A stretch of 37,047 nt of DNA, taken from positions 1 through 37,047 of the IMG/VR virus record IMGVR_UViG_3300015202_000028. The stretch is one strand, 5' to 3'. The notes beneath the pieces were generated by a model. It did not search any database and was not told the origin of the DNA. It was given only the letters and a program-made list of their open reading frames with translations. This stretch comes from a virus. Below, one piece after another: positions 3,696 through 18,578 of this stretch; the stretch's first letter is position 1, and each line of letters opens with the position of its first letter. Made by a program: the position numbers and the translations under genes.

Positions 3696-3800
3696 TTGAA
3701 CCTCCCCACACCTAAAGGCGGGGGATTCCTGAAGGGGCTCACGCACACCTCTCGAGGCTCGTTCCGAGCCCGACAATTAGAGTGTTGATCGCAGCGTTTA
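3695..3800 (-). ncRNA. Candidate omega (right-end) guide RNA of TnpB
   Basis: In IS200/IS605 elements the right end overlapping the 3' part of tnpB yields an RNA whose last part copies the flanking DNA and guides TnpB. Here the minus strand from about 3800 holds a GC-rich hairpin (GGGCTCGGAACGAGCC), then the CCCC/GGGG hairpin and the terminal GGTTCAAC at 3695. The guide would start with CGATCACCGACAAACAG. Limits are estimated and expression is not shown. Confidence 0.4.
3704..3733 (+). repeat. 30-bp subterminal direct repeat of the IS (copy at 3704-3733 and 5232-5261)
   Basis: The two copies are identical over 30 bp, beginning CCCCACACC and ending GATTCCTGAA. Each folds into a short hairpin with a CCCC/GGGG stem. 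The flanking bases differ on both sides. Confidence 0.85.
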
Positions 3801-4782
3801 TATCGCGATCATGTTGGACTCCACAGTCCGAACACTCCCATTGTCTTACCTGTAAGCCTGAAATACCTGTAGGTCCATTTTTGGACAAACAGGCATGACA
3901 AGTCATAGTGGAATATTTAGAATCAACTTCGATGTATTTCCTATTGCTAATACTGCATTTATAGGACAACATTTGCCTTAGTTGATAGTGGCCAGCTTCT
4001 GCCACTGATTTGCCGTATTTCTTTGCTATACCTTTTATGTTATCTTTAGAAAACACAATAGTATCATATTCTTGTACAAGTTTGTGAGAAAGTTTGTGAT
4101 TTTCATCTTTACGTCTATTTTTAATTCTTTCTTGTAAACGAGCAGTTAATTTCTTGTCCTTACCTCTTTGCGCTTGAGCTAATCTATTTTGCCTTTTTTT
4201 AAAATGCTTTATAGTGTCTATTTTTACGCCATTTGAAAGTGTTAAGTTAGTTTTATATCCGGGATCGATTCCAACTTTACCTTCCCCGTTTGGTAAGATT
4301 ACATTCGACTTGGAATCTATAAACAAACAAAGATACCAACCTGAAGCTCTTTTAACTATACGTCCGCACTTAATTTTTCCTTGAGGGATGTCTTGCTTAT
4401 GATACCGAATTAAACCCAGCATTGGAATTCTGACACGGCCTTCTGTAGGGTATTTTATAGAGTCAGGAAAAGGAATTGATGCTAATTTATTTCTAACACC
4501 CTTAAATCTAGGTTTTTTTCCAATTTTTTTGAAGCAACGTTGCCAAGCTGTATGTCCCATTTTTAAAATAGCTTGTAAAGTATGTGATGGAATTTCCAAT
4601 TTTTTTGAGTGATTGGCTAATAGATTAACAAAATCAAATTCTTTGTGGTAAATTCCATGTTTAGCATCATACCCTATTTTAGATATACCCCAGTTCCATA
4701 CGCGAGTAAGCGATAACAACCACGAATTAAGTTTAACTTCCTGTTTTTTGTTGATGCGTAGTTTAATTTGCGTCTGTATCAT
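3739..4782 (-). CDS. tnpB: TnpB (IS605 OrfB) RNA-guided nuclease-like protein
   Basis: A 347-residue TnpB: N-terminal wedge/recognition region, RuvC-I with GIDPGYK (Asp173), a long basic helix, RuvC-II, a four-cysteine zinc knuckle (Cys295, 298, 317, 320) and RuvC-III with HDRDINAA (Asp327). The RuvC-II segment reads TIVFSKDNIKG at 241-251, where most TnpB proteins have a catalytic Glu (pattern vvEdLnvkgM); Ser245 sits there. Glu262 in the following helix might replace it, as catalytic rearrangements are known among TnpB/Cas12 relatives, or the nuclease may be inactive. The gene overlaps tnpA by 4 bp (ATGA). TnpB normally cuts the empty donor site to help the element persist. Confidence 0.93.
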   Translation of the reverse strand: MIQTQIKLRINKKQEVKLNSWLLSLTRVWNWGISKIGYDAKHGIYHKEFDFVNLLANHSKKLEIPSHTLQAILKMGHTAWQRCFKKIGKKPRFKGVRNKLASIPFPDSIKYPTEGRVRIPMLGLIRYHKQDIPQGKIKCGRIVKRASGWYLCLFIDSKSNVILPNGEGKVGIDPGYKTNLTLSNGVKIDTIKHFKKRQNRLAQAQRGKDKKLTARLQERIKNRRKDENHKLSHKLVQEYDTIVFSKDNIKGIAKKYGKSVAEAGHYQLRQMLSYKCSISNRKYIEVDSKYSTMTCHACLSKNGPTGISGLQVRQWECSDCGVQHDRDINAAINTLIVGLGTSLERCA

Positions 4783-5174
4783 ATTTTTTGCTGATCTTCT
4801 ACGTATTTTTTAATGACATCTAAAGAAGCCCCACCAACAGTGGACACAAAATACGAGTTAGTCCAAAGACTCGGTAAACGTGATTTGACGGATTTGTAAG
4901 TTTTTCTTAATGTATGAGAACTTAAACATTTAATTTCTTTAATTAATCTATGTATTCCGTATTGCGGATCTACTTCTACAAGTAAATGGACATGATCGAG
5001 CATTAATTCTAATGCTATAATATCACATTTTCTTTTAGAACAAACGTCATGAATAATTAATTTTAAATGAGCTTGTATTGGATCATCCAGCACTTTTCTT
5101 CTGTATTTTGTACACCACACCACATGATATTTACACGAATAAACTATATTATTGTTAGATTTAAATTTAGGCAT
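4779..5174 (-). CDS. tnpA: TnpA, Y1 HUH transposase of IS200/IS605
   Basis: This 131-residue protein has the usual length of IS200 TnpA. It begins with the typical YSCKYHVVWCTKYRRKVL segment, carries the metal-binding HVH at 61-63 (LDHVHLLVEV) and the nucleophilic Tyr124 in the C-terminal helix (DVIKKYVEDQQ). All key residues are present, so it could be active. It moves the element as single-stranded DNA by cutting near the hairpins at the ends. No strong ribosome site is seen ahead of ATG 5174. Confidence 0.93.
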   Translation of the reverse strand: MPKFKSNNNIVYSCKYHVVWCTKYRRKVLDDPIQAHLKLIIHDVCSKRKCDIIALELMLDHVHLLVEVDPQYGIHRLIKEIKCLSSHTLRKTYKSVKSRLPSLWTNSYFVSTVGGASLDVIKKYVEDQQKI

Positions 5175-8795: not shown

Positions 8796-9038
8796 ATGGA
8801 TATAGGAATTGTAATAACAGCGGCAGGAACAATAGTTGCTGTCGTCGGTTCAAACATAGCTTTAATTTCTTGGCTAAGAGCTGACATGAAATCTTTTGAA
8901 ACAAAGGTTGACGGTTGGAAAGAAGAAATTCAAAAAGAATCAAAGGATTTTCACGGAAGACTTGAAAGACAGGATGCTGAATTTAAATCGCATATCATGC
9001 ATTTCTACGAAGAAAGGTCAAAAAATGACCAAAGGTAA
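8796..9038 (+). CDS. Membrane-anchored coiled-coil protein of the FHGRL family
   Basis: An 80-residue protein. Residues 5-27 form one hydrophobic segment (VITAAGTIVAVVGSNIALIS), followed by a charged coiled coil ending in KDFHGRLERQDAEFK. The same KxFHGRL motif recurs in the two minus-strand proteins at 28352-28543 and 28540-28761, so the phage carries three related copies. The topology (one helix in the membrane, rod in the cytoplasm) is compatible with a holin-like, antiholin or superinfection-exclusion role, but none is proven. It overlaps the recombinase start by 14 bp and shares its promoter. Confidence 0.65.
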   Translation: MDIGIVITAAGTIVAVVGSNIALISWLRADMKSFETKVDGWKEEIQKESKDFHGRLERQDAEFKSHIMHFYEERSKNDQR

Positions 9039-9600
9039 AAAAATAGGTTACATAAGGGTAAGCACAGTTGATCAAAACCCAGATCGGCAATTAGTAGATA
9101 TAATATTAGATAAAAAATTTATTGAATATTCTTCTGGTAAAAACATAAAAAGACCGCAATTAGAATTATTGATAGATTACGTACGAGAGGATGACGAACT
9201 TTTTGTTCATTCAATTGATAGGATGGCTAGAAATGTTAAAGATCTTCTTTATTTGGTTGACCTTTTCGTTAGCAAAAATGTAACGGTGCATTTCGTAAAA
9301 CAAAACTTAACATTTAATGGAAATGATTCTGCGGTATTTAAATTTCAATTGTCAATTTTAGGTGCAGTATCTGAACTTGAAAGAGAAATAATTTTGGACA
9401 ACCAAAGAGAAGGGATAGCAGAAGCCAAGAAACGAGGAAAATATAAAGGAAGAAAAAGTCAATTTACAGAAGATATGAAACGAAAGATTATATCAGCACT
9501 TGAGACTCGTGACTCAAAAACTAAAATAGCTGAAGACTTAGGCATATGTAGATTTACATTATATAAATATTTAGAAAAAATACAGACACAAACCAATTAA
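9025..9600 (+). CDS. Serine recombinase (resolvase/invertase family)
   Basis: A 191-residue protein from ATG 9025, with AGAAAGG 7 nt upstream; the longer frame from 8896 is out-of-frame shadow of the preceding gene. GKKIGYIRVSTVDQNPDRQL holds the catalytic Ser13, the arginines of the active site follow (DRMARNVKDLL), then LSILGAVSELEREIILDNQREGI forms the long E-helix, and residues about 145-190 are a Hin-type helix-turn-helix. Size matches resolvases and invertases, not large serine integrases. It may resolve multimers of a circular prophage or invert a segment; no paired inverted crossover sites were recognised. It is the only recombinase besides the IS transposase. Confidence 0.9.
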   Translation: MTKGKKIGYIRVSTVDQNPDRQLVDIILDKKFIEYSSGKNIKRPQLELLIDYVREDDELFVHSIDRMARNVKDLLYLVDLFVSKNVTVHFVKQNLTFNGNDSAVFKFQLSILGAVSELEREIILDNQREGIAEAKKRGKYKGRKSQFTEDMKRKIISALETRDSKTKIAEDLGICRFTLYKYLEKIQTQTN

Positions 9601-9736
9601 AAATGAACTTCATCTAACGGCCATAGGTGAGTAAATGATTAATATTTAATATAAATAGACTAGACTATAAGTATAATTTTCTTGAAACATGTGTACCATT
9701 CGAGTATATATTAAAATAAAATATGTGAATATACCT

Positions 9737-10135
9737 ATGGCAAGACCGCTAAAAGCAATCAATTGGGATTTAGTAGAATTATATGCTAAATCAGGATGTA
9801 CACAAAAAGAAATCGCAGATAGTTTACATATCCACAGAGAAACATTAGCTGATAGAGTAAAAGAAAAATACGGAATGGATTACTCGACCTTCTCGACTTA
9901 TTTTTATAGTGAGGGAGATATTTTATTAAAAGCACAGCAATTTCAGAAAGCTATGAAGGGTTATTGGCAAGCTTTGATGTGGTTAGGTAAAGTAAGATTA
10001 GGACAAAAAGAACCCGAAAGCGTCATGAATTTAGCAGCTAATCAGACTCAATTAGATCAATCGCATCGCATCATGGAATTAGAACATCAACTTTCAGAGT
10101 TAAAAGCTAATGCCAACCAGCCCAAAACAGAATAA
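9737..10135 (+). CDS. terS: Small terminase subunit (TerS)
   Basis: A 132-residue protein. I place the start at ATG 9737 (MARPLKAINWDLVELYAKSG) because it matches small terminase N-termini; the frame is open back to 9689 but that leader is not conserved in type, and neither start has a good ribosome site. Residues 5-45 are the DNA-binding helix-turn-helix (GCTQKEIADSLHIHRETLADRV). The centre has KAQQFQKAMKGYWQALMWLGKVRLGQKEPE, the usual oligomerisation core, and the tail is a short coiled coil. It recognises the packaging site and feeds DNA to TerL, whose gene overlaps it by 26 bp. A TATAAT lies at 9672-9677 without a good -35 box. Confidence 0.8.
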   Translation: MARPLKAINWDLVELYAKSGCTQKEIADSLHIHRETLADRVKEKYGMDYSTFSTYFYSEGDILLKAQQFQKAMKGYWQALMWLGKVRLGQKEPESVMNLAANQTQLDQSHRIMELEHQLSELKANANQPKTE

Positions 10136-11819
10136 ATCATTTTGTGAAGCTACTCATAGATTCAATATCTGGGTGGGAGCCGTATCATCTGGAAAGACAT
10201 ATTCAAGCATCGAAAGACTTATCTACGATCTAAAGAATGGCCCTCGCAATGAAGATGGTGGTGGCGATGCTATGATTATTGGCGTTAACCGTACATCAAT
10301 ACAACGTAATTTGCTCACACACTTATACAGAAGGCTAGGTTTCCCATGTCCGACAGAGAAAGCCCAAATGTCCCGTTTGTATGGTCGCGATGTGTGGTTT
10401 GTGGGTGCCCCCGATGTCTCGGCCGTCTCGACGATCCAAGGGTCGACTCTCGCTCTTGCTTATGTGGACGAAGCTACAAATCTACCAGAACCATTTTGGA
10501 AGATGCTGGAATCTCGTTTGAGAGTCCCTGGAGCAAAACTATTAGCGACCTGCAACCCTGAAGGTCCAGCCCATTGGCTTAAGAAAGACTATATTGATAA
10601 ACCGGGCTTAGACCTTGCTTGCTGGAACTTCAATCTTGAAGATAACCCCATACTTGATGATAAGTATAAACAGCAGCTGAAAGCCTCGTATACAGGTATG
10701 TGGTACAACAGATATATATTAGGAGAATGGGCACTTGCTCATGGGGCTATTTATGATAACTATGACAAAGACAACGAATATGAAAATCCATTCCCTGCCC
10801 CTAACTATTATGTCGTTGGTGTCGATTATGGGACTACCAATGCAACAGCTGCGGTACTTTGTGCCGTTACACCCAATAAGTGGCCACAGATCAGAGTCGA
10901 AGCGGAATATTACTATGATTCAACTAAGAAAGGACGTAGCAAAACCGATCAAGAACTTGTTAGAGATATCAAAGATTTTATTGGTTATAAGAACGTATCT
11001 GCTATTTATGTGGACCCTGCAGCCGCGTCCTTCAAAATTGCTCTTAGACAATCTGAACTCCCGGTATTGGATGCAAATAACGATGTTTTACTTGGAATTA
11101 AAATATGCTCAAAGTTTATTGGAGGGAAAAATATAGTCATTCAAAAAGGATGCACTGTCTTAAGAGAACACTTACAATCATATTCTTGGGATTCTAAGGC
11201 AGCCGATCGAGGCGAAGATAAGCCAGTGAAGAAGAACGATCATATCTGTGTCACAGGTGATACAAAAGTTATGCTTGGTTGTGGAAATGTTGAAATAAAA
11301 CATCTTGTCGGTGATCTTAAAGGTTTAGTAGTAGCCTATAAACATGAATATGGATTTCTGCTTGCTCCTTTATTTCTAGGAAAAAAAACTGGAGAGAATA
11401 AAAAGATTCTTAAACTTACTCTTGAAAATGGTAAAACCTTGAAAGCAACACCCGATCATAAAGTAATGACAAAACGCGGATTCATTGAGATACAATTTCT
11501 ACTGACTAGCGATGAGGTTTTGTGTTATGAAAAACAAGGTGTTGTAGCAGGTCATGCGGGTGTATACTCCGCAGTCAAAAGCATTGAAGAATGCGAACCT
11601 GAAGATGTTTACTGTATTTCTGTTCCTTCAACCGGAAACTTTGTTGCTAATGGAATGGTGATAGCGAATTGCGACGCATTAAGATATGCCATTGTTTCAG
11701 CCTTTCCCCGAGGAGAATTCAGTCATCCCGATGAAAATATTTCTTATGATCAATTACGAAAACAAGTTTTTGGATCAAATGATATGTACGATCAATTTAA
11801 TTCAAGTTTAGGACTATGA
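10110..11819 (+). CDS. terL: Large terminase subunit (TerL) interrupted by a mini-intein
   Basis: The 569-residue precursor holds a 428-residue terminase and a 141-residue intein. The ATPase half has Walker A GAVSSGKT (23-30) and Walker B ALAYVDEATN; the RNase H-like nuclease has Asp239 (VGVDYGTT), Asp302 (YVDPAA) and Asp522 (CDALRY). Residues 380-520 are the intein, cutting the usual DHxxDALRY nuclease motif between Ile379 and Cys521. Without splicing the nuclease site cannot form, so packaging should depend on it. After splicing the motif reads DHICDALRYA. TerL drives DNA into the procapsid and cuts it. It overlaps terS by 26 bp. Confidence 0.92.
   Translation: MPTSPKQNKSFCEATHRFNIWVGAVSSGKTYSSIERLIYDLKNGPRNEDGGGDAMIIGVNRTSIQRNLLTHLYRRLGFPCPTEKAQMSRLYGRDVWFVGAPDVSAVSTIQGSTLALAYVDEATNLPEPFWKMLESRLRVPGAKLLATCNPEGPAHWLKKDYIDKPGLDLACWNFNLEDNPILDDKYKQQLKASYTGMWYNRYILGEWALAHGAIYDNYDKDNEYENPFPAPNYYVVGVDYGTTNATAAVLCAVTPNKWPQIRVEAEYYYDSTKKGRSKTDQELVRDIKDFIGYKNVSAIYVDPAAASFKIALRQSELPVLDANNDVLLGIKICSKFIGGKNIVIQKGCTVLREHLQSYSWDSKAADRGEDKPVKKNDHICVTGDTKVMLGCGNVEIKHLVGDLKGLVVAYKHEYGFLLAPLFLGKKTGENKKILKLTLENGKTLKATPDHKVMTKRGFIEIQFLLTSDEVLCYEKQGVVAGHAGVYSAVKSIEECEPEDVYCISVPSTGNFVANGMVIANCDALRYAIVSAFPRGEFSHPDENISYDQLRKQVFGSNDMYDQFNSSLGL
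11247..11669 (+). other. Mini-intein (141 residues) inside TerL
   Basis: Splicing block A is CVTGDTKVML with Cys1; block B is GKTLKATPDHKVMT with the conserved Thr and His; block F is VYCISVPSTGNFVANG; block G is MVIAN followed by extein Cys+1. Between B and F there is no LAGLIDADG or HNH domain, and the length of 141 residues equals minimal inteins. The penultimate residue is Ala instead of the usual His, a variation seen in some active inteins. The insertion point is the catalytic third-aspartate motif of the nuclease, a typical highly conserved intein site. Confidence 0.92.
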
Positions 11820-11916: not shown

Positions 11917-13938
11917 ATGGGTTCATACGAGTCTAGCAATTTTAGTCTTGGTTTCATAGATCCTTCAGATCGTTCAGCAAAAGATATTAAGCAAATGATG
12001 GATTGGTTTTACCAATCTCATTATACTGCAAACGCTGCCTTGTGGTTACAGGGATCGATAGATAAGCGTTTTAAAGTGGGAGATCAACAACTTTATAACC
12101 AAGTCTACGGTCAAAATTCACAAGGCGCTCAAAAATTCTTTTTCAATTTGATTCGTAGACATATCAATATGGTATGTGGTTTCCAACGTAAAAACAGAAA
12201 ATCTACTGCTACAATTCCCTTAAGTGATAACGGCGATCCATTAGCAGATGACAACAACAAAGTTATGCGTTGGTGTGATGATAGAGATGGTTTTCAAGAA
12301 TATCTATCACAAAGTTTCGAAGGTGCATGCGACACAGGAGAGACACTATTACATCTCTATCCAGACTACACCTTCGACCCTATATCAGGAGATCTTTTTA
12401 CAGATTCTGTAAGTTATAATAATTATTTAATTGATCAATATACTCGTAAACAAGATCTTTCTGATTGCAATGGAATATGGAGAAGAAGGTGGACATCTAA
12501 AGAAATGGCCAAAGTTTTGCTACCTGGTTATTCCGAAGAAATAGATAAAATGAGTCCGGGTGGAATGAAAGACGGACGGTTTCCTTTACAAGCGGAATTG
12601 CAAAATATTTCAATTAATAATTTATTTACTTACGATGAATTTTATTACCGTTCAACAAGACGGGGAAAAATAATTTTAGATCCTAAGTCGGGTGAAGCTG
12701 TTGAATGGGAAGAGGATGAAGCTGAAGAAGAAGGAATGATAGAAAAAGTTCTTTATCAACAACCTTGGTTAAAAGTTAAAGAAATTGACATTCCTACTGT
12801 AAAACTAGCTATATGTCTTTCAGGAAAAACCGTTTATCATGGTAAAAATCTACTTGGGATAGATCAATATCCATTTGTTCCCACCCAATGTTATATAGAG
12901 AATGATATCCCCGCATATGCTTGGAGAAAACAAGGCATTATTCGAAATCTTCGTGATAGTCAATTCCTTTACAACATGAGAAAAGTAATAGAACTTCAGC
13001 TCTTACAGAGTTCTTTAAATGCTGGATGGATTTATCCGGTAGATGTAGTTCCAGATCCTAAATGTTTTAGACAGACAAGTGGTGGAGATGGGTTTTTAAT
13101 CCCACTAAAAGCAGGAAGGCTACCTAGTGAAATACAAAGGATCGAGCCTGTAGCTATTCCACAATCTTTACTTGAGCTTTCTAATAGTCTAGCCGAAGAT
13201 ATAACTAAAATATCAGGTGTAAATGAGGAATTACTCGGTTCTGCCACAGATGATAAATCTGGAATACTTTCAATGTTGCGACAAGGAGCAGGTCTTACAA
13301 CACTGCAAACAATATTTGATAAACTCGACTATACACAACGCCTATATGGGAAGATCAGATTACAAGCCATTAGAAAGAACTTCAGTAAGGGTAAGATTCG
13401 CAATATACTTGGCCATGAGGCAGACCCAAGATTCTTCACAAGTCATAGCCAAAAATATGCCATCGCTGTTGAAGAGGGAAATTATAGTGCAAGTCAAAGG
13501 CAAACTGAGTTGCAACAACTTCTCTATTTTAAAGAACTCGGTTTGGGAATTTCAGATAAATCCATTATACGTGCAGCATTTATCACCAACAAACAGCAAG
13601 TTATCGCTGATATGGAAGAACAGAATAAACAACAAATGCAACAGCAGCAATCAGAATCCCAACAGCAAGAAAAGATTGATAATGCCAAAATCATGCAAGC
13701 ATTTTCTAAGTCTCGTTTGGATATGGCTAAAATTGAAGAAACTAAGGCTAAGATACAAGATATTGAAGCTTCAGCACACCATAAACAAGCTCAAACTGAA
13801 TTGGATATTGTTAAGTCTATGTTGGAATTGGAGACCATGGATTTGGAAATGATTCACCGATCTTATGAAATTGCAATGGCTATAAAACAACAAAATACAG
13901 AAACAACACAAATCGAGCAGGCTTATACAGCAGCTTAA
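11917..13938 (+). CDS. Portal protein
   Basis: A 673-residue protein in the expected place after terL. Residues 50-110 (WLQGSIDKRFKVGDQQLYNQVYG, then FFFNLIRRHINMVCGFQRKNR) match the start of large podophage-type portals; the middle contains YPFVPTQCYIENDIPAYAWR and RNLRDSQFLYNMRK, and KISGVNEELLG marks the clip/stem helix region typical of portals. The last 90 residues are Gln-rich and coiled coil (QQQQSESQQQEK), resembling the barrel or crown. It forms the twelve-part ring through which DNA enters. No intron or intein is seen here. A long frame on another phase at 13223-13852 is a shadow. Confidence 0.85.
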   Translation: MGSYESSNFSLGFIDPSDRSAKDIKQMMDWFYQSHYTANAALWLQGSIDKRFKVGDQQLYNQVYGQNSQGAQKFFFNLIRRHINMVCGFQRKNRKSTATIPLSDNGDPLADDNNKVMRWCDDRDGFQEYLSQSFEGACDTGETLLHLYPDYTFDPISGDLFTDSVSYNNYLIDQYTRKQDLSDCNGIWRRRWTSKEMAKVLLPGYSEEIDKMSPGGMKDGRFPLQAELQNISINNLFTYDEFYYRSTRRGKIILDPKSGEAVEWEEDEAEEEGMIEKVLYQQPWLKVKEIDIPTVKLAICLSGKTVYHGKNLLGIDQYPFVPTQCYIENDIPAYAWRKQGIIRNLRDSQFLYNMRKVIELQLLQSSLNAGWIYPVDVVPDPKCFRQTSGGDGFLIPLKAGRLPSEIQRIEPVAIPQSLLELSNSLAEDITKISGVNEELLGSATDDKSGILSMLRQGAGLTTLQTIFDKLDYTQRLYGKIRLQAIRKNFSKGKIRNILGHEADPRFFTSHSQKYAIAVEEGNYSASQRQTELQQLLYFKELGLGISDKSIIRAAFITNKQQVIADMEEQNKQQMQQQQSESQQQEKIDNAKIMQAFSKSRLDMAKIEETKAKIQDIEASAHHKQAQTELDIVKSMLELETMDLEMIHRSYEIAMAIKQQNTETTQIEQAYTAA

Positions 13939-13996: not shown

Positions 13997-14194
13997 ATGG
14001 CACACAGCAAAGAAGCTCATGGTAAAATCAATGCTATGAAGCAATTTAATGATGGACATCATGAAAAGAAAATGTCGGATATCACTACAGCTGATGGAAA
14101 ATATTCAGGTGGAGAAATGAGTCAATCAGAAGAGTATAAGAAATCTGTTGATGCATTAGCTTCGTACGCAAAGAAGCACAAAGCTAAACATTAA
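13997..14194 (+). CDS. Small hypothetical virion-region protein
   Basis: A 65-residue hydrophilic protein with an AAGGAG site 7 nt before ATG 13997. It is rich in His, Lys and Ser (GHHEKKMSDITTADGKYSGG, ending KKHKAKH). It is the first of four small genes between portal and scaffold. No family recognised; it may be a minor head or DNA-bound protein. Confidence 0.6.
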   Translation: MAHSKEAHGKINAMKQFNDGHHEKKMSDITTADGKYSGGEMSQSEEYKKSVDALASYAKKHKAKH

Positions 14195-16821: not shown

Positions 16822-17123
16822 ATGTCATTCTCTACCGGTATTACCGGCATTCAGAATATGGCTCCCGAGCTGCCAGTACAAGCATCGGAAGACTTACTTT
16901 CCACGCCCATGTTCAATTTAATTCATTCTTTTGGAGTCGATCTTCATCATTCTGAAAGTTATATCGGTAAAACAACTCGTATGAGTCGTTTTGAGCGTTT
17001 ATCTACAGATGGTGGACAGTTAGATGGTTCTGGAATAGATCCAGCATCTGAAGTGCCAGTTCGTACAGACATTGATGCGACCATGGAGATTTATGCTAAG
17101 TCTATTGTTACAAACGAGCAGGT
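16822..17123 (+). CDS. Major capsid protein (N4-gp56-like), exon 1
   Basis: ATG 16822 follows GAGGTG. Exon 1 codes for 100 residues and two bases of codon 101, ending EIYAKSIVTNEQ plus GT. Joined to exon 2 at 17912 it gives a 322-residue protein reading TNEQVVLYENSKTLTKFTAL across the junction, which is the expected pattern of the N4-gp56 capsid family. Without splicing, the frame runs into the intron and stops at 17190 after 22 foreign residues (ICTACFKFSVNN and others). The protein builds the head shell. Exon end was set by the U-G pair of the P1 helix. Confidence 0.9.
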
Positions 17124-17911
17124 TAAAATATGCACAGCCTGCTTTAAATTTTCGGTAAATAACTTGGAAAGCCTAAGGATTGCTGCTTAAGCAATTTATG
17201 GTAACCAGAGGCAAGACTTAATTATCTAAGGAGCCACGGCGAGCATGAAGAGATCTAAGTTCAGAAACAAGTTTGACACGAAGTTCAGTGACCTCAGGAA
17301 GGACACTTGGGCCACGTTGTCCAATTTTATAAAATTTGAGCTTAGAGGTTTTAATCATTTCCATAACGATTTCAATCTGTCTCTTTTTTATGATCGCGAA
17401 GGGCAATATGAGTTCGCAAATATGAAAAAGAAGTTCACCAGTGCACTGCCATTTATAGACTTTTTTAAGACTATTTATAGGAGTTTGTTTTCTGGTGTAA
17501 GTATATTTTTTGCTTCCAAAAGTATTGACAAGCCAATCAATAAGGCATTCGTCAGTACTGCTAATGATCAAATAGGTGGTATATTGAGGAGTTCCAGTTT
17601 TACCAGAGGCATAATTGCCACTAGTCAAAGCCCCTTCACCATCAACGATTCCAGCCATATAAGCAATAACAGTATCTGGGTAAGACTTTCTAACATATTT
17701 GAATCTCATATAAATCCTATTGTAAACGTTGGTATATACGTTAATGATAACATAATTAAGGTTTAGCCGCAACGACTAACCCCGAAAACACTAGAAATAG
17801 TGAAGTGATAGTCTGAACAGTGGTGAAAGCCATTGAGTGGGGATTAACAAGACCCACCGCCTGAAAAGGTCAGTAGGCCCAGCTATGGGACCGAAAGTAA
17901 CAGTCGTAATG
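17124..17911 (+). ncRNA. Group I self-splicing intron (788 nt) in the capsid gene
   Basis: P1: exon end GAGCAGGT (17116-17123) pairs with GCCTGCTT (17137-17144), with the required U-G wobble at the 5' splice site. P10: the first exon-2 bases TGTGC (17912-17916) pair with GCACA (17132-17136), directly next to the P1 guide. P7: GACTA (17774-17778) pairs with TAGTC (17809-17813), enclosing P8 CACTA-GAAA-TAGTG (17789-17802). P9-type hairpins follow (GTGGG/CCCAC and GGTC/GGACC). The intron ends in G (17911), as required. It contains a homing endonuclease gene on the opposite strand. Confidence 0.92.
17218..17709 (-). CDS. LAGLIDADG homing endonuclease, antisense within the group I intron
   Basis: A 163-residue protein. 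ATG 17709 is chosen over 17772 because AGGA lies 7 nt upstream and the longer leader is hydrophobic and asparagine-rich without a site. Residues 15-30 hold the motif IAYMAGIVDGEGALTSG, with the catalytic acidic residue; one motif means it should act as a homodimer. A second part (WLVNTFGSKKYTYTRKQT, YKWQCTGELLFHICELILPF) is typical of the family's beta-sheet saddle. The enzyme would cut intronless capsid genes and spread the intron. Placement on the strand opposite to the intron is unusual: it cannot be translated from the spliced precursor and needs its own promoter. Confidence 0.9.
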   Translation of the reverse strand: MRFKYVRKSYPDTVIAYMAGIVDGEGALTSGNYASGKTGTPQYTTYLIISSTDECLIDWLVNTFGSKKYTYTRKQTPINSLKKVYKWQCTGELLFHICELILPFAIIKKRQIEIVMEMIKTSKLKFYKIGQRGPSVLPEVTELRVKLVSELRSLHARRGSLDN

Positions 17912-18578
17912 TGTGCTTTACGAGAATAGTAAGACGTTAACAAAGTTCACAGCATTGCTAGGACAATGGTTAAGAGAAAAAGAAGATCTTTTAATGAGAG
18001 ACTTATTTTCAAGTTCTGTAAGTTATATAAACGCTACAGGTGGTTTGAACGGCGATCAGCCAAGTAATATCAGCTTAAACGACGTAAATAACATTGAAAA
18101 CATCCTACTAGGCAATGATGCTCGTAGTATGCTTACAAACCTAGAAGCGACTTTAAAATTCGCAACAGGTGGTGTTAGGGATGCGTTTATTGCGCTTGCA
18201 AATACAAACTTGTGCGCTGACCTTCAAAAAGTTCAAGGCGTCCTTTTGAAATCTGCATATCCAACGCAAGAAGGGATCAGACCAGAAGAATATTGTTCTA
18301 TCTCTAGATTCAGATTTTTTGTTTCATCTAAAGCTGCAAAGACTCCTGGAATATCTATGAAAGGGAACACTGTCTATACAATACCTATGTATGGATTGGA
18401 AGCTGCTTCGAAAATCGAGCAGAACAATTATACCGCAGTTATTGGTTATCGTCCTCCTTGGGTCGTTTCTGCCGTAGCTCAAAACAGCCAGCTTTACGCC
18501 AAGTTTGCGATTGCAAGAGCAATCACTAACCAAAACTGGATATCTGGTTTGAATGTAACAACCTTCCAACCATCATAA
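17912..18578 (+). CDS. Major capsid protein (N4-gp56-like), exon 2
   Basis: Exon 2 completes codon 101 and adds 221 residues. It holds LGQWLREKEDLLMRDLFSS, NATGGLNGDQPS, ILLGNDARSMLTNLEATLKF, RPEEYCSISRFRFFVSS and the C-terminal GYRPPWVVSAVAQNSQLYAK, in the order expected of N4-gp56-type capsid proteins (HK97 fold). A GTG at 17913 could begin a separate frame but has no ribosome site, and the protein would lack its N-arm. The gene is followed by an AAGGAG site for the next head protein. Confidence 0.9.

Follow-up and report, generated by a model that had tools for sequence, protein, structure and literature searches.

The large terminase gene and its mini-intein

This study concerns an insert in the large terminase (TerL) gene of a virus represented by the IMG/VR record IMGVR_UViG_3300015202_000028. 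Positions 1 to 37,047 of this record, a stretch of 37,047 nucleotides, were analyzed and are referred to as the window. The TerL open reading frame (ORF) is located on the plus strand at 10110-11819 and encodes 569 residues in a single unbroken frame. It matches the PBSX TerL model TIGR01547 with an E-value of 1.2e-38, above the cut-off. The insert occupies positions 11247..11669 (plus strand) and corresponds to TerL residues 380-520 (CVTGD...VIAN). It comprises 141 residues from Cys1 to Asn141 and is followed by a cysteine at position +1; in precursor numbering the two cysteines are C380 and C521. The sequence NDHI precedes the insert and CDALRY follows it. The N-extein (10110..11246, plus strand) consists of 379 residues ending in NDHI, covers the ATPase domain together with the larger part of the nuclease domain (TIGR01547, 16-380) and shares 83-97% identity with the equivalent part of insert-bearing relatives. 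The C-extein (11670..11819, plus strand), which begins with CDALRY, adds 49 residues and the stop codon and carries the third acidic nuclease residue. When joined, the two exteins form a protein of 428 residues.

The insert was recognized by the intein hidden Markov models (HMMs) PF14890, TIGR01445 and TIGR01443. The Pfam family Intein_splicing (PF14890) matched the window TerL with an E-value of 4.6e-12, and the NCBIfam models intein_Nterm (residues 380-454) and intein_Cterm (residues 499-521) gave E-values of 3.2e-10 and 5.4e-5, respectively, all above their cut-offs. An AlphaFold2 model of the intein alone, calculated from an alignment of unmodified relatives, reached a mean confidence (pLDDT) of 92 and a pTM of 0.87. 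The top match of this predicted structure in Foldseek was the NpuDnaB mini-intein 4o1r with a TM-score of 0.91, which corresponds to a predicted HINT fold. The intein motifs are kept, namely block B with TPDH (TxxH), block F with EDVYCISV and the C-terminal NGMVIAN with its terminal Asn. Profile searches revealed no HNH or LAGLIDADG match in the 141 residues, so that the intein is without an endonuclease domain. With its nucleophiles, its blocks, the predicted HINT fold, the absence of an endonuclease and the empty alleles described below, the 141-residue segment of TerL is a genuine class-1-type mini-intein. An earlier note on this DNA had placed a 141-residue intein at exactly these coordinates. 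The ORF translation, the HMMs and the fold model bear this out.

As the same note had pointed out, the penultimate residue of the intein is Ala instead of His. In relatives this position is occupied by Lys, Ala, Ser, His or other residues. Thus, the Ala of the window is a family trait and not a sign of decay. Ratios of nonsynonymous to synonymous substitution (dN/dS) between the window and the relatives L003, L005, L006 and L007 were 0.20-0.33 for the N-terminal part of the intein (IntN) and 0.07-0.11 for the C-terminal part (IntC). In the comparison with relative L002, the value for IntN was 0.49 and IntC was identical. These values well below 1 indicate that the intein is maintained under purifying selection. 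They also bear on the possibility that the insert is dead, either because it no longer splices or because TerL is inactive in the window phage. Such a loss of function could be suspected from the penultimate Ala, from the absence of a homing endonuclease gene (HEG) and from the metagenomic nature of the contig. However, non-His penultimate residues are normal in this family and the remaining catalytic positions are all kept. In addition to the low dN/dS values, the HINT model is confident and the TerL frame is intact over 569 codons, and we consider a dead insert very unlikely.

The insertion site and its empty alleles

A scan of viral contigs yielded 80 TerL relatives, which were aligned by their exteins. 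In 72 of them the motif is joined in frame with a gap of 0 nucleotides, two are truncated, and the remaining six (L002-L007) carry an insert at the identical base. The nucleotide flanks match between filled and empty alleles, and the insert is scattered across the TerL tree. The presence of empty and filled alleles at one site shows that the element is polymorphic and not fixed. The earlier note had reasoned that an intein without endonuclease must be fixed. The absence of an endonuclease domain was correct but fixation was not, since the site is polymorphic and relatives carry a HEG of the HNH type. Its comparison with intein-free relatives did turn out as proposed. Homologues which keep the residues as a normal TerL domain, named there as the refuting case, were looked for, and the 72 uninterrupted relatives lack these residues. 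That the segment is an ordinary domain or linker of TerL is favored only by its in-frame position; the joined motif in most relatives, the intein HMMs and the fold make this hardly conceivable.

Among solved structures, the chains 5oe8/5oea are closest to L016, an uninterrupted TerL of the clade; we take them to be the D6E large terminase (PMC5727402). The alignment spans KPVKKNDHICDSLRY / KPVKQNDHQLDADRY. In this alignment the insertion site falls on NDHQLDADRY of 5oe8, the third conserved acidic motif of the RNase H-like nuclease, where the earlier note had located it (DHI|CDALRY). The intein parts the His of NDH from the next Asp. The Asp following the NDH-type motif in TerL is a metal-binding acidic residue of the RNase H-like nuclease. 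Since the intein interrupts this motif, packaging likely depends on intein splicing, a sound conclusion of the earlier note.

No Rfam intron was found at the TerL insert of the window at the gathering threshold, and none at the insert in L002, L007, L160 and L275-L277. A group I or group II intron as the TerL insert is not supported by these searches.

Split alleles in relatives

The inserts of L002-L007 have lengths of 497, 955 or 958 nucleotides, none of which is divisible by three. In L002, L005, L006 and L007 the TerL frame continues into an IntN of 93-94 residues and then terminates at a stop codon (TGA, TAG, TAG and TAA, respectively). One codon past this stop an ATG opens an intact 195-residue ORF. 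The encoded protein belongs to the HNH_3 family (PF13392, E-values of 6e-14 to 2e-17) and contains zinc-ribbon cysteines. IntC and the C-terminal part of TerL follow in the next frame, starting from an ATG within the 3' end of the HEG. This split layout, with a stop after IntN, the HEG in between and IntC in an ORF of its own, was confirmed in L002, L005-L007, L160 and Lactobacillus phage CL2. The two halves would be expected to reconstitute TerL by trans-splicing. L003 and L004 have lost the greater part of the HEG and retain only its 3' part, and their IntN and IntC are still in different frames. In these two alleles HEG erosion is in progress. Such separate ORFs for the two halves, as in a fractured gene or split intein, are not found in the window, where TerL is one 569-residue ORF. 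For this reason the window intein, although probably derived from a split intein, is not itself a member of the fractured genes.

The HNH gene of the relatives is probably a homing endonuclease gene, as judged from its scattered distribution in the tree and from the precedent of other HEGs. Alternatively, its product could be a packaging cofactor of the terminase, as in HK97. HNH proteins which adjoin terminases and aid cos cleavage are known (discussed in PMC10448857). However, the HNH gene occurs sporadically and is absent from the window and from most of its close relatives. Moreover, it is positioned between the intein halves or beside TerL and has an HNH_3 plus zinc-ribbon make-up. A cofactor function is in our view quite unlikely.

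The junction in the window

The TerL tree places the window as sister to the HEG-bearing L002 with a support of 99/99. The two sequences are approximately 97-100% identical over the region between the junction and window position 14000. At the junction itself, about 532 nucleotides of HEG are missing in the window, together with one A in an A-run. The part equivalent to IntN (11247..11530, plus strand; blocks A and B) is homologous to the separate IntN of about 93-94 residues in L002, L005, L006 and L007. The part equivalent to IntC (11532..11669, plus strand; blocks F and G) is 100% identical to the separate IntC of L002. The junction between them (11525..11535, plus strand) reads TTATGAAAAAC, where relatives carry the HEG of about 532 nucleotides. 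The corresponding end of IntN is TGTTATGATTAG in L005 and L006, and the start of IntC is AAATATGAAAAAAC in L002. The short sequence TATGA at the join is also found in this IntN end and in this IntC start, a placement as would be expected for a deletion between short homologies. The window also retains an out-of-frame remnant of the HEG, KTRCCSRSCGCILRSQKH (11531..11587, plus strand), which is identical to the last 18 codons and the stop of the L002 HEG. The zinc-ribbon end of the HEG, which is encoded by the overlap with IntC, also occurs in free-standing HEGs near uninterrupted TerL genes (L161, L034), indicating that the overlap sequence arrived with the HEG. The absence of the HEG in the window looks like a recent loss.

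Taken together, we assign a probability of roughly 0.8 to the reading that the window carries a cis-splicing mini-intein descended from a mobile split intein which was re-fused by deletion of its HEG. During co-infection, the HNH enzyme of a HEG-bearing phage would cleave the uninterrupted TerL gene of the other phage at the empty site, and the entire insert would be copied during repair. In the ancestor of the window the two intein halves would have been separated by the HNH homing endonuclease gene. Deletion of this gene would then have fused the halves within one frame, so that TerL became one precursor again. Excision of the intein would proceed by an acyl shift at Cys1, transesterification at Cys+1 and cyclization of the Asn. 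Splicing would restore NDHICDALRY and thus the nuclease active site, and cis-splicing would suffice for this. With its HEG gone, the intein of the window is no longer capable of self-homing, and its persistence or loss should follow that of its TerL.

Several observations speak against this history. The shifted-frame peptide of the window did not score clearly above 500 synonymous shuffles of the intein when compared with HMMs of distant HEGs, because the intein residues dictate most of that peptide. The 5' half of IntN (11300-11399) shows 47% nucleotide identity to L002, and both flanks show 95-100%. This points to a recombination patch and to a locus of mosaic, recombinant origin, as homing would be expected to produce; in such a mosaic the deletion may have occurred in another lineage. 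Furthermore, distant TerLs (L086-L088) carry contiguous mini-inteins at this site, so that a contiguous ancestor is possible in principle. Finally, the window is a metagenomic contig, and splicing itself is deduced from the sequence.

A wider family of loci with HNH genes

A scan with the IntN protein alone recovered only two loci, and the matches of the A1 profile scan were mostly empty TerLs. Scans with HEG profiles found further loci, which were classed by HMMs for IntN, HEG and IntC. In this way 53 distinct HEG-bearing loci with IntN, HEG and IntC in this order were obtained. Nearly all of those listed have the junction motif NDH|C...N|C(x)DALRY or NDHI|C...N|CDALRY. The loci L173 and L174, which were matched by intein similarity, were excluded since their intein precedes CDFACH and does not occupy the NDH...DALRY site.

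The frame of IntC is +1 to the frame of the HEG in every one of the 53 loci. Consequently, the overlap of the HEG 3' end with IntC is an old shared feature which is still present in the IntC of the window. This fixed relation is relevant to the reverse order of events, in which a contiguous mini-intein was ancestral in the clade and an HNH gene invaded relatives and split it. The contiguous inteins of the more distant L086, L087 and L088 would agree with this order, and the free-standing HEGs which closely follow an intact TerL in two members of the clade (L034, L068) would provide a possible source. However, an invading HEG would need its own zinc-ribbon C-terminus to be already encoded in the intein, and the constant +1 frame points to one old junction. 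Besides, HEG erosion is ongoing in L003/L004, and the window is nested beside a split allele in the tree. We regard an invaded contiguous ancestor as unlikely and favor re-fusion of a split intein.

A split gene is present in 36 of the 53 loci, and the IntN of these is distributed over all three frames (14, 13 and 9 loci). In the other 17, IntN and IntC share a frame which runs without a stop through the whole HEG, itself encoded in another frame. These overprinted contiguous loci are L100, L102, L108, L172, L190, L193, L196-L198, L220, L221, L226, L228, L230, L239, L240 and L267. Synonymous shuffling of the HEG predicted 1.8 unbroken loci compared to the 17 observed, in a set of loci which are not independent and whose kinship was left uncorrected. 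This expectation was calculated over all 53 loci, since a Fisher combination of the zero-stop loci alone is selection-biased; p-values of single loci over the HEG core ranged from 0.0015 to 0.69. The isolates L276 and L277 likewise have a contiguous TerL intein with the HNH HEG in another frame. PF14890 was recognized across the overprinted HEG in L276, L102 and L108. In an AlphaFold2 model of the overprinted L108 intein, based on an alignment of 14 sequences, confidence was approximately 83-94 and 71-90 for the two halves and mostly below 50 for the 200-residue middle, which gives weak evidence for a disordered linker.

Several of these states occur in named phages and in one bacterial genome. 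Lactobacillus phage CL2 has a split gene which was deposited as TerL and HNH endonuclease. At this locus (L275:1967-2760) the IntC-TerL-C piece after the HNH gene is unannotated, and TerL looks truncated in the record. The gene is also split in Vibrio phage 1.238.B, where the pieces are annotated as hint-domain proteins, and at a locus of Megasphaera cerevisiae DSM 20462 (L250). Acinetobacter phage Highwayman (TerL of 760 residues) and Tetrasphaera phage TJE1 (728 residues) have contiguous genes with the HNH gene in another frame. In Brochothrix phage BL3 the HEG is eroded, and in Pseudomonas phage PAE1 (L278) an HNH gene immediately follows TerL.

HEG relatives that stand alone directly after an uninterrupted TerL were observed at L034:6117-6698, L068:2220-2822, L161:1951-2544, L167:3001-3597 and in PAE1. 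Two of them (L034, L068) belong to the clade of the window. A free-standing HEG beside an intact TerL possibly represents a state of collaborative homing or a state before invasion.

Overall, the TerL nuclease motif probably hosts a widespread and largely undescribed intein family with an HNH HEG in another frame, whose overprinted, split and re-fused states would constitute a full cycle at one site. In the literature searched, no paper described an intein of the TerL nuclease site that occurs in split, overprinted and re-fused forms, and papers beyond it may exist.

Comparison with known systems

The nearest precedents for this family at the TerL site are the fractured genes and the out-of-frame HNH gene of phage ShiLan. 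The fractured genes of Dassa et al. (2009), a study cited in PMC10448857, reportedly consist of N-extein-IntN, a HEG and IntC-C-extein, with a HEG of another nuclease family. Relatives of the window share this layout. Here, however, the HEG is of the HNH_3 type and its overlap with IntC has a constant frame relation, and a single site shows fused, eroded and re-fused alleles. AceL-TerL is likewise a naturally split intein within a TerL, but it has a very short IntN and occupies another TerL site.

In ShiLan, an out-of-frame HNH gene resides in a methylase gene without splicing domains and is thought to be retained in the protein (PMC11855218). In both cases an uninterrupted host ORF conceals an HNH gene in a different frame. 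In contrast to ShiLan, the host-frame ORF of the present family contains complete intein halves (PF14890 in L276, L102 and L108).

Mycobacteriophage TerL inteins occupy seven sites, all in the ATPase domain; five tested inteins spliced and two tested had endonuclease activity (Kelley et al. 2016, PMC5050341). They resemble the intein of the window in their position in the large terminase near active-site motifs. However, they are contiguous and located in the ATPase domain, whereas the site described here is in the nuclease motif and the relatives are split by an out-of-frame HNH gene.

In phage ICP1, a terL intron with an adjoining HEG is subject to collaborative homing, and the gene is rejoined by RNA splicing (PMC10448857). 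The position of the HEG beside the exploited gene is comparable to that in L034 and L161, where a HEG just follows the intact TerL. The present system differs in that rejoining would occur by protein splicing and in that the HEG can lie inside the gene.

Other features of the window

The small terminase gene (9689..10135, plus strand; PHROG 309 terminase small subunit, E-value of 7.9e-7) overlaps the start of TerL. The next gene after TerL encodes the portal protein (11917..13938, plus strand; PHROG 156, E-value of 1.4e-66). A serine recombinase (PF00239) is encoded at 8896-9600, just upstream of the small terminase and outside the region common with L002. At 3739-5174 the minus strand carries an IS200/IS605-type pair, consisting of a TnpA-like transposase (4779-5174) and TnpB (OrfB; 3739-4782, PF07282/PF01385). 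In L002, an Rfam int-alpA RNA (RF02996) was detected at 12109-12171 with an E-value of 2e-4.

Approximately 788 nucleotides (17125-17912) interrupt the major capsid gene, whose two parts lie at 16822-17124 and about 17913-18578. This insert is shared by L360/L361 and absent in the sister phage (L282), and 77 of 80 relatives are uninterrupted. A minus-strand ORF within it (17218-17772) matches PHROG 5046, which bears an HNH endonuclease label, and contains a LAGLIDADG-like GIVDGEG motif. A group I intron signal of Rfam at 17672-17835 had an E-value of 0.035, below gathering. The insert is likely a group I intron, although weakly supported. Of the statement in the earlier note that the capsid is also under a splicing event, the interruption of the gene is thus confirmed, and the splicing has this weak support.

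Meaning of the TerL site family

The notable feature of the window intein is its history and the family which it revealed. The debate on the origin of split inteins and on their possible return to one piece has so far drawn on isolated examples. In the present case a single site of one gene family presents empty alleles, empty alleles with an adjacent HEG, and intact split, eroded, re-fused and overprinted contiguous alleles. The phages concerned include cultured isolates, namely Lactobacillus phage CL2, Acinetobacter phage Highwayman, Tetrasphaera phage TJE1 and Vibrio phage 1.238.B. The natural pairs of about 95 and 46 residues, together with a natural fusion of the two, could also serve as tools in protein ligation. 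How split inteins originate, whether hidden HEGs are translated and whether packaging depends on splicing can now be tested directly.
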